This document shows positions 57,264 to 59,992 of a DNA stretch of 64,000 nucleotides, piece by piece. The notes under the pieces are model-generated. The model ran no database searches. It was not told the origin of the DNA and saw only the letters and a list, made by a program, of their open reading frames with translations. Origin of the DNA: Thermosphaera aggregans DSM 11486 (lineage in GTDB: Archaea; Thermoproteota; Thermoprotei_A; Sulfolobales; Desulfurococcaceae); assembly GCF_000092185.1 (NCBI RefSeq), contig NC_014160.1, positions 930,001 to 994,000 on the forward strand, given 5' to 3'. Within the stretch, counting starts at the first letter, position 1. Each line of letters begins with the position of its first letter. The position numbers and the translations under genes were made by a program.

Positions 57264-57461
57264 ATGGAAGAAACCCTGACAAGGGTATCTCAGCCTATAA
57301 ACAGCACGATGCTTCAGGAATGGGTTCAGGGACTCGACTTGTTCTCCTATATTGCCCTGCTCATAGTTTTCACTGTTTTCATCACATTAACCATTCTCGA
57401 GTTTAAATCGGGTAGGGCGAGCAGTATATCGCTAAGCAACCGCGACTCCCAGGTCGAGTGA
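57264..57461 (+). CDS. Small single-helix membrane protein
   Basis: 65 residues: a polar N-terminus, one helix YIALLIVFTVFITLTILEF, and a basic/serine-rich cytoplasmic tail. Probably co-transcribed with cutA. Its 3' end overlaps the convergent gene by 30 bases. Unknown function. Confidence 0.55.
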   Translation: MEETLTRVSQPINSTMLQEWVQGLDLFSYIALLIVFTVFITLTILEFKSGRASSISLSNRDSQVE

Positions 57462-58157
57462 TCTTTGAGCATTCACATAGGCCTGAAGAGGCGTCGGCCC
57501 TTTACCCACGCCCAGCTTGAAATCTAGCCCTATGTTTAAAATTTCATTTATGTTTGAAGGATCTAGTAAGCAGACGGCCTGCGAATCTCTGCACTCCAGT
57601 AGTAACCCACCGTTTCTGAATATTAGCTTGGAGATTTCAGCACAGTAGTATTTGCTTATGTAAACGCTCAGGGCTAGGTCGCTTGGAAAGAGTTCCTCAC
57701 CGTAATCGAACAACGCGATCACCGTTTCACTCGTGCCCCCTTCTAAGAACGTGAAACCTGGTTTAGCAGACAGGTATTTCGAAGCAAGCAGTAGGGTAGT
57801 GTATGGTTTACTATGGCTTACAGACACGAATGAAACCCCGTGGTCAACCATCTGGTTCAACCTTCGATAAATCAGCTCCTCGTCAAGCCTCCCCGCATTC
57901 CCCGGGAGAACCGTGAATAAATCGTTCATAGTGTGAAATACGAGCCCCTCATGCTTCAGATAGTGTTGAAGCAGGGTCTCGCGAACTCTTCTCGTGAAAT
58001 CGTCAAACTTTTCATAGCCGAGAAATCCTTTGGAGAGCCTAATCCTATCAGCCTCTAGTATTCTCACATAGGTTACGCGGGGCAATCCACATCTTGCTCC
58101 TCTAAGTGTTTTTGAAAACGAACATATTGTTTCACTATAAATATGGTTTATTCTCAT
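57432..58157 (-). CDS. GTP cyclohydrolase III-like protein with lost active-site motif
   Basis: 241 residues. The order of blocks follows archaeal GTP cyclohydrolase III (two cyclase-like halves): HEGLVFHTMNDLFTVLPGN, then GVSFVSVSHSKPYTTLLLAS, later ALSVYISKYYCAEISKLIF, and FKLGVGKGPTPLQAYVNAQ near the end. The metal-binding GGDN of GCH III is replaced by LECRDSQA, and the first-half aspartate of the IQIDNYG motif is missing (YVRILEADR). So catalysis is doubtful; it may bind nucleotides only. Divergent from glmS, with the glmS TATA inside its first codons. Confidence 0.55.
   Translation of the reverse strand: MRINHIYSETICSFSKTLRGARCGLPRVTYVRILEADRIRLSKGFLGYEKFDDFTRRVRETLLQHYLKHEGLVFHTMNDLFTVLPGNAGRLDEELIYRRLNQMVDHGVSFVSVSHSKPYTTLLLASKYLSAKPGFTFLEGGTSETVIALFDYGEELFPSDLALSVYISKYYCAEISKLIFRNGGLLLECRDSQAVCLLDPSNINEILNIGLDFKLGVGKGPTPLQAYVNAQRSLDLGVAVA
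58134..58144 (+). promoter_or_regulatory. TATA box of glmS
   Basis: ACTATAAATAT, about 35-45 bases before the glmS ATG at 58178. It overlaps the first codons of the divergent gene. Confidence 0.55.
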
Positions 58158-58177
58158 ATATATGTTGAGGGTCAGTC

Positions 58178-59992
58178 ATGGGCGGTATTTTCGCAGCAGT
58201 CTGTAAGGAGAAAATCCCTGAAGGCGTCTTATACAATGGTTTGAGGAGGCTTGTATACAGGGGTTACGACGGAGCCGGGGTTGCCTTCTTACGGGGAGAT
58301 AAAATCGTTGTTTGGAAGTCCCCGGGGCATTTAGAAAAAATTGCTCCACAGTTGAATTATTTGAACACGGATTCAGATGTGGCAGTTGCGCACACAAGAT
58401 ATGCTAGCAGGGGCTGGCCGGTCCTAGAGAACACTCATCCCTTGCTGGATTGCACTGGCAGAATCGCCGTAGTGGGGGACGGAATAATCGAAAACTATGA
58501 GGATTATCGAAAAGTCCTCGAGGACAGGCATCACCAGTTAAAGGGGAGAACCGATACGGAGGTAGCGGCCCACCTGCTTGAGGAAGCGTTGGCGAAAGGG
58601 GTTAACGTGTTAGAGGTGCTTCAAACACTGAGCAAGCAGTTGAAAGGCATATATTCCCTAGTATTCCTTATCGAGCCGTATAGAAAGCTATTCTTCATAG
58701 CTAATGGCCAACCATTAGTTATCGGCATAGGCGAGAAATGTTATTTCGTCTCAAGCGACATTCCCTCTTTATACGGCTTCGCTGAAACAGCCTACATGAT
58801 TGAGGATGGAACTATAGGCTGGGTTGATGCCCAAGGCTTTACAGCCATTAGGACTGCTGATGGAAGCGTTCTCACTCCCGAGAGGCTTCAGGGTAAAAGG
58901 GTGAAGTACTTTGCCGAGGCTGGAGAGAAAGGCGGGTTTCCCCATTTCATGCTGAAGGAGATATATGAATCTCCTGAAGCCTTGAACAGGGTCTTACTTG
59001 CGGTAATGGAGAAGTACTTACACCTAGCCTCCATGATAGTGTACGGCGCTAAGAACGCTTTCATACTTGCCAATGGGACAAGCCTTCACGCAGGCATGAT
59101 CGGGTCTTACTACTTCAACGACTTAGCCGGCGTGAGCGTTGACCCTGTTTCAGCAGCTGAGTTCCCATACTACGCCTTGGAGACTGTTGAGACCGGTACC
59201 GTGGTTATTGCTATAAGCCAAAGCGGTGAAACCTCCGACGTAATATCGAGCATTAAGCTTGCCAAGCAGAGGGGAGCGGTGGTGATCGGGATTACGAACA
59301 ACGTTGGATCAAGACTTGCCCTGGAGTCAAACGTTTACCTTCCAATAGGTGCTGGACCAGAGATAGCCGTGCCCGCGACGAAGTCCTTTACCGCGACACT
59401 AGCCACATTGCTCCTCTTCGCATCCTACACGGGTATGTTCACAGGTAAAACATCACGGGATGATTATCGAAGAATTGTTGAGGAGATCAAAAACGCTTCT
59501 GCATTATTGAAAGAAAAGATTCCAGAGTTTGACAAGAATGCGATGAATATTGTTCAGCTAAACTATAACTGGGGAGGCGCGTATGTAGCGAGTAGTGGGA
59601 TAAACTATCCCTTGGCCCTTGAAGGTGCGTTGAAGCTCAAGGAGGCAGCTATTATTCATGCTGAGGGATTCCAGCTCGGCGAGATGAGGCATGGCCCAAT
59701 GGTGTTGGTCTCAAGAGACTTCCCCATGGTGTTAATAGAGCCTGCGGAGGAACAGGCTAAACCGCTTTATGTTAAGGTTTTGGAGGAAGCCCGTAATAAG
59801 GGCGCTAAACCCATCGTGATTGGTCCAGGCAGGTTAGGCGATAGTGTTACTATTCAAACACCGAGTGTGCCAAGATATCTCTCCCCAATAGTCTCTAGCA
59901 TTCCGATTCAACTACTAGCCTACAGGCTCGGAGTAGCTTTCAATAGACCTATAGACACTCCACCAGGTCTTGCGAAAGCTATAACCACCTAG
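58178..59992 (+). CDS. glmS: GlmS-like glucosamine-6-phosphate synthase with inactive-looking glutaminase
   Basis: 604 residues with the GlmS layout: N-terminal glutaminase (1-215), two SIS domains (about 285-430 and 455-600). The isomerase half is intact (SQSGETSDV, LKLKEAAIIHAEGF, MRHGP, terminal AK). In the glutaminase half the N-terminal MCGI is MGGI, so the catalytic cysteine is glycine; HTRWATHG reads HTRYASRG and HNG reads GDG, changing further glutamine-site residues. It must use free ammonia, act as a deaminase/isomerase, or have a regulatory role. ATG start is certain from homology. Confidence 0.9.
   Translation: MGGIFAAVCKEKIPEGVLYNGLRRLVYRGYDGAGVAFLRGDKIVVWKSPGHLEKIAPQLNYLNTDSDVAVAHTRYASRGWPVLENTHPLLDCTGRIAVVGDGIIENYEDYRKVLEDRHHQLKGRTDTEVAAHLLEEALAKGVNVLEVLQTLSKQLKGIYSLVFLIEPYRKLFFIANGQPLVIGIGEKCYFVSSDIPSLYGFAETAYMIEDGTIGWVDAQGFTAIRTADGSVLTPERLQGKRVKYFAEAGEKGGFPHFMLKEIYESPEALNRVLLAVMEKYLHLASMIVYGAKNAFILANGTSLHAGMIGSYYFNDLAGVSVDPVSAAEFPYYALETVETGTVVIAISQSGETSDVISSIKLAKQRGAVVIGITNNVGSRLALESNVYLPIGAGPEIAVPATKSFTATLATLLLFASYTGMFTGKTSRDDYRRIVEEIKNASALLKEKIPEFDKNAMNIVQLNYNWGGAYVASSGINYPLALEGALKLKEAAIIHAEGFQLGEMRHGPMVLVSRDFPMVLIEPAEEQAKPLYVKVLEEARNKGAKPIVIGPGRLGDSVTIQTPSVPRYLSPIVSSIPIQLLAYRLGVAFNRPIDTPPGLAKAITT

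Follow-up and report, generated by a model that had tools for sequence, protein, structure and literature searches.

The gene at positions 58178-59992 (plus strand) of the window, by which we mean the entire stretch of 64,000 nucleotides of the Thermosphaera aggregans genome that was analysed, encodes a member of an ancient, single-origin family of GlmS paralogues that exists alongside normal GlmS and in which glycine occupies the place of the catalytic cysteine. We refer to this protein and its orthologues as GlmS2. Alignment strongly supports the loss of glutaminase chemistry in GlmS2 with its isomerase chemistry intact, and we favour, with moderate confidence, its interpretation as a deaminase of GlcN6P (an amino-sugar-6-phosphate deaminase) that retains a non-catalytic glutaminase domain. 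No description of a Gly1 GlmS was found in the non-subscription literature searched. The features of the gene are as follows.

58166..58168, plus strand: in-frame TGA 5' of the GlmS2 ATG (from the reading frame)
58178..59992, plus strand: Gly1-type GlmS paralogue 'GlmS2', 604 aa, predicted amino-sugar-6-phosphate deaminase
58178..58897, plus strand: inactivated class-II (Ntn) glutaminase-like domain, residues 1-240 (Pfam GATase_6 / GATase_7; C1G, N98D and W74Y by alignment)
58181..58183, plus strand: codon 2, GGC (Gly), where the Cys1 codon stands in GlmS
58400..58402, plus strand: Tyr75 at the Trp74 position, the ammonia-channel gate of E. coli GlmS (alignment)
58409..58411, plus strand: Arg78 at the His77 position (alignment)
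58478..58480, plus strand: Asp101 at the Asn98 position, the catalytic Asn of GlmS (alignment)
58925..59989, plus strand: two-SIS isomerase domain, residues 250-604, with the full catalytic set (Pfam SIS x2, alignment, Foldseek)
59633..59644, plus strand: Lys486 and Glu489, E. coli Lys485 and Glu488 (alignment)
59690..59692, plus strand: His505, E. coli His504, ring opening (alignment)
59975..59977, plus strand: Lys600, E. coli Lys603, the Schiff-base lysine (alignment)

The protein begins MGGIFAAV, its first codons being ATG GGC GGT ATT, which bears out the central observation of the sequence-only reading. Since GGC is one base from TGC, a sequencing error or a misread start might be suspected of masking a normal GlmS; this explanation is refuted, and we give it practically no credence. 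The in-frame TGA at 58166-58168 is separated from the ATG by GGG TCA GTC and nothing else, so that no upstream start could give MCGI, and glycine replaces Cys1 in 90 of 90 family members from independent genomes.

These 90 aligned members are the basis of all residue counts given here for the family, in E. coli GlmS numbering; orthologues that are 50-60% identical to GlmS2, and more distant relatives that are 36-49% identical, are spread over the order and the wider phylum (Thermoproteota). Besides Cys1, the nucleophile that defines GlmS, the family has lost Asn98 (Asp in 89, Glu in one) and the channel gate Trp74 (Tyr in 76, Phe in nine, Ser in five, never Trp), and Ala400 has become proline throughout (90/90). 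In a companion alignment of canonical archaeal GlmS, Cys1, Trp74, His77 and Asn98 are kept in 23 of 23 sequences. The replacements of histidine and asparagine that had been noticed in the window gene are confirmed as Arg78 and Asp101, as is Tyr75 at the position of Trp74; the His77 position is divided between arginine (53) and histidine (37), which marks H77R as a later change within one GlmS2 subclade. The substitution of DGAG for DSAG is also real, but its supposed significance is not upheld, because the Ser position varies within the clade (39 Gly, 12 Ser, one Cys).

The isomerase half does keep its motifs, as had been claimed: Lys485, Glu488 and His504 are invariant (90/90), Lys603 is present in all members except one that is truncated at a contig end (89/90), and the phosphate-site residues Ser303, Ser347, Gln348 and Ser349 do not vary (n = 90). 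Published roles for the human counterparts, which comprise an isomerase set (Lys558/Glu561/His577/Lys676) and a glutaminase set (Cys2/Asn123/Gly124) (PMC7000685), lead us to read the changes in GlmS2 as loss of the glutaminase with retention of isomerase chemistry. Arg73, Gly99 and Asp123 in the glutamine pocket are each conserved in 90 of 90 members although the nucleophile is gone, as might be expected if GlmS2 were a non-catalytic regulatory or sensor pseudoenzyme, for instance in a hetero-oligomer with the canonical protein (GlmS1). We consider this improbable, given that the whole isomerase catalytic set is invariant, that the isomerase half diverges more slowly than the N-terminal domain and that the family is linked to NagA (below).

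An AF2 model of GlmS2, built from 58 family sequences, has a mean pLDDT of 92.2 and a pTM of 0.92, and its best PDB matches in Foldseek are full-length E. coli GlmS and the C1A mutant of that enzyme. The full-length TM score to these matches is only ~0.55, compared with 0.87-0.90 for the isomerase domain alone against GlmS isomerase domains, probably because the two domains are set at another angle in the GlmS2 model. The C1A mutant (PDB 3ooj) is likewise a GlmS without its nucleophile; unlike this engineered single mutant, the natural GlmS2 is also altered at Asn98 and Trp74, and the two are ~31% identical. No NagB fold was seen in GlmS2 by Pfam or Foldseek, the fold being SIS instead.

A second glmS is indeed present in the T. 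aggregans genome (1,316,595 bases, one contig), at G000:C1:20922-22721 on the minus strand, beyond the window. This canonical GlmS of 613 aa starts M-C-G-I-I from a TTG codon, is 35% identical to GlmS2 and scores 677.9 bits against TIGR01135, the NCBIfam glmS equivalog; most other carriers of GlmS2 likewise possess a canonical GlmS. When a maximum-likelihood tree is built from the isomerase domain alone, so that the glutaminase domain and hence the trait itself play no part, all 67 Gly1 proteins form one clade (SH-aLRT 99), outside which fall 45 Cys1 GlmS from archaea and bacteria; isomerase-only SIS proteins sit on long branches of this tree. Hence, the earlier framing of the window gene as a single GlmS that had lost its cysteine was mistaken: the family is ancient, of one origin, and stands beside the normal enzyme.

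In a comparison of the window gene with its nearest relative, the dead domain has a dN/dS of 0.087 and the isomerase one of 0.033, the corresponding values for a canonical GlmS pair being 0.138 (glutaminase domain) and 0.081. Across the GlmS2 family the dead domain diverges ~1.3-1.5x faster than the isomerase, against a ratio of 1.04 in canonical GlmS. Constraint on the dead domain is thus relaxed yet far from decay, and it remains under purifying selection. Recent decay of a lone glmS is ruled out by the canonical glmS, the dN/dS of 0.087 and the ancient single origin, and glycine is fixed at the nucleophile site, where Ala, Ser or Val might have arisen by drift, which points to probable selection there.

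A scan of genome contigs with the single GlmS2 protein brought up distant relatives, 33-38% identical and belonging to other phyla, but nothing closer. In Sulfolobus tokodaii, ST2245 is the GlcN6P 4-epimerase and ST2186 the GFAT; that GlmS2 is this epimerase was considered and is unlikely, given that the glmS-like genes of the genome that we take to be S. tokodaii (G094) lie ~370 kb apart and the two locus numbers are close.

Pfam recognises a class-II glutaminase-like domain in GlmS2 together with a pair of SIS domains, and the protein scores 484.1 bits against TIGR01135, above the cut-off of 418.05. It shares with GlmS/GFAT the full-length two-domain architecture, the isomerase catalytic residues and the fold, and differs from it in the absence of Cys1, Asn98 and Trp74, in the invariant proline at Ala400 and in forming a separate monophyletic paralogue that coexists with real GlmS. 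With NagB-II and GlmD it shares the predicted use of GlmS-like isomerase chemistry without ammonia channelling, the genomic link to nagA and isomerase-only relatives that apparently take its place in genomes without GlmS2. Those enzymes, unlike GlmS2, are SIS-only proteins of ~330 aa; GlmS2 has 604 aa and keeps a dead glutaminase domain of 240 aa, and it falls far below both curated cut-offs (118 bits against 430 for the NagB-II model NF046059, 80.6 bits against 580 for the GlmD model NF041128). As GlmS2 lacks defining features of GlmS as well as the architecture and scores of NagB-II/GlmD, we file it in neither class, although it probably works like the latter.

When all neighbouring ORFs at ~60 GlmS2 loci were clustered, one partner stood out, namely NagA, the GlcNAc-6-P deacetylase, identified by TIGR00221 (310 bits, cut-off 226). 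The nagA gene is the immediate neighbour of the GlmS2 gene in 27 of 82 loci, representing 13 genera and 7 families. Divergent, convergent and same-strand arrangements all occur, and in family f35 the pair lies on the same strand in 6 of 6 loci with gaps of 12-55 bp; that adjacency is kept while orientation changes argues for a functional link. Of the 197 genomes from the order, 55 encode both proteins, 22 GlmS2 only, 12 NagA only and 108 neither (Fisher p 4e-19), and the genus-level counts are 22, 3, 4 and 45 respectively (p 7e-12), both p values being uncorrected for shared ancestry; assignments of GlmS2 were mostly checked by sequence, a few (such as the fragment in G193) being made by similarity score alone. 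Classical NagB (TIGR00502) was found in 0 of the 197 genomes, with a working positive control. Furthermore, an isomerase-only SIS protein is present in 7 of the 12 genomes that have NagA and no GlmS2. In one of these (G070) its stop overlaps the start of nagA by 4 bases (ATGA; L283:7672-9725), and this isomerase-only relative of GlmS is likely to be a replacement for the putative deaminase. On this view, the GlcN6P that NagA produces would go either to GlmS2 or to an isomerase-only protein, which is what one would expect of two deaminases.

Several other genes recur in these neighbourhoods. A second SIS_2 'sugar isomerase' of the PRK02947 family is found by nagA and GlmS2 at loci L141, L150, L180, L182, L266, L269, L270 and L284. 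A MupG_N protein (PF19200, 6-phospho-N-acetylmuramidase-like) lies mostly within ~5 kb of GlmS2 in the Sulfolobaceae-like family f11 (L160, L161, L163, L166, L168, L169, L173), with a Dpp-type ABC transporter alongside; its carriers are organisms in which murein is not expected, and it may hydrolyse phospho-disaccharides in an amino-sugar pathway. Directly upstream of GlmS2 in the window, a divergent ORF of 241 aa (57432-58157, minus strand) has a weak, below-cut-off match to GTP cyclohydrolase III (PF05165, E 8e-4), and divergent ORFs occupy a similar place in related genera. The surrounding synteny, comprising genes of the tRNA synthetase class I W/Y family and the OMPdecase/HUMPS family, CutA and this divergent ORF, is conserved among close relatives only and was set aside as uninformative on function.

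It is the gene neighbourhood, the co-occurrence, the absence of NagB and the apparent replacement by isomerase-only proteins that lead us to favour a GlcN6P deaminase among the three functions first offered (ammonia-dependent enzyme, deaminase or sensor). Some observations count against it. The association with nagA, itself a feature of NagB-II/GlmD, is seen in other members of the family and is absent from the window's genome: no NagA was detected in the window's genus (G000-G002) at E 1e-20, nor any PIG-L/Dac deacetylase, so that a Thermococcus-type chitin route via Dac was rejected for this genome. Together with the 22 carriers that lack NagA, this implies a role beyond following NagA or another source of GlcN6P. 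The low NagB-II/GlmD scores also weigh against deamination, as does the presence of GlmS2 together with a GlmD-like SIS protein in some genomes (G014, G022, G129, G017), sometimes in one cluster. Two clusters (L182:4840-9891 and L185:2180-7434) contain a GlmD-like SIS protein, nagA, a PRK02947-family SIS protein and GlmS2. Where a GlmD-like protein and GlmS2 share a cluster, the putative deaminases may act on different substrates.

In one alternative, GlmS2 would be a deaminase or isomerase acting on another amino-sugar phosphate (e.g. GalN6P), or a hexose-phosphate isomerase. The NagA and AgaA families overlap, several clusters hold a second SIS_2 sugar-phosphate protein, and GlmS isomerase domains can convert F6P to G6P (hGFAT2, PMC7948480). 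We nevertheless regard it as unlikely, as all catalytic positions that contact GlcN6P are conserved and the partner matches a GlcNAc-6-P deacetylase equivalog (TIGR00221), a specificity that in archaea is predicted.

Deprived of glutamine-derived ammonia, the isomerase site of GlmS2 could only use free ammonium or run in reverse. The former would make it an ammonia-dependent GlcN6P synthase, providing a second, glutamine-independent route from F6P. The intact isomerase residues and the lack of NagA in the window's genus fit this idea, and there is a parallel in PurF' of Crenarchaeota, the same archaeal group, where a second amidotransferase paralogue without an N-terminal Cys occurs beside a normal one and has been proposed to be ammonia-dependent; PurF' belongs to the PurF family, is linked to purine genes and often has Ala or Val for Cys, unlike the invariant Gly of GlmS2 (PMC3261824). 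Ammonia-dependent synthesis is doubtful here because a canonical GlmS is present in this genome and in most carriers, and pairing a synthase with a catabolic deacetylase would be pointless. NagA linkage and coexistence with GlmS instead favour the reverse, catabolic direction.

For the predicted GlcN6P deaminase, we infer the reaction, its direction and its substrate as follows. GlcN6P or a related amino-sugar 6-phosphate would be supplied by NagA in most carriers; His505 would open the GlcN6P ring, Glu489 (by proton transfer) and Lys600 would lead to the ketimine/enolamine, and hydrolysis of the imine by water would release fructose-6-phosphate and ammonia. The dead domain probably serves as a structural lid or a ligand-binding regulatory domain. 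A more tentative suggestion, kept alive by the invariance of Arg73, Gly99 and Asp123, is that it has been repurposed as an amino-acid sensor. Such a sensor might bind an amino acid, glutamine or some other, leave it unhydrolysed and so switch the deaminase on or off. Were this true, a futile cycle with the cell's own GlmS would be prevented, and a synthase would have become a nitrogen-gated reverse enzyme.

These results expose a systematic problem of annotation, in that the glmS equivalog TIGR01135 admits this protein, even though the catalytic cysteine that defines GlmS is absent throughout its clade; since GlmS2 exceeds its cut-off, automated annotation will probably name the whole clade glmS. 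A deaminating GlmS2 would explain how the many Thermoproteota that possess NagA and lack NagB could finish the breakdown of N-acetylglucosamine. In this family an amidotransferase has apparently become a candidate enzyme for the reverse, deaminating reaction, its ammonia-generating half being disabled and not deleted.
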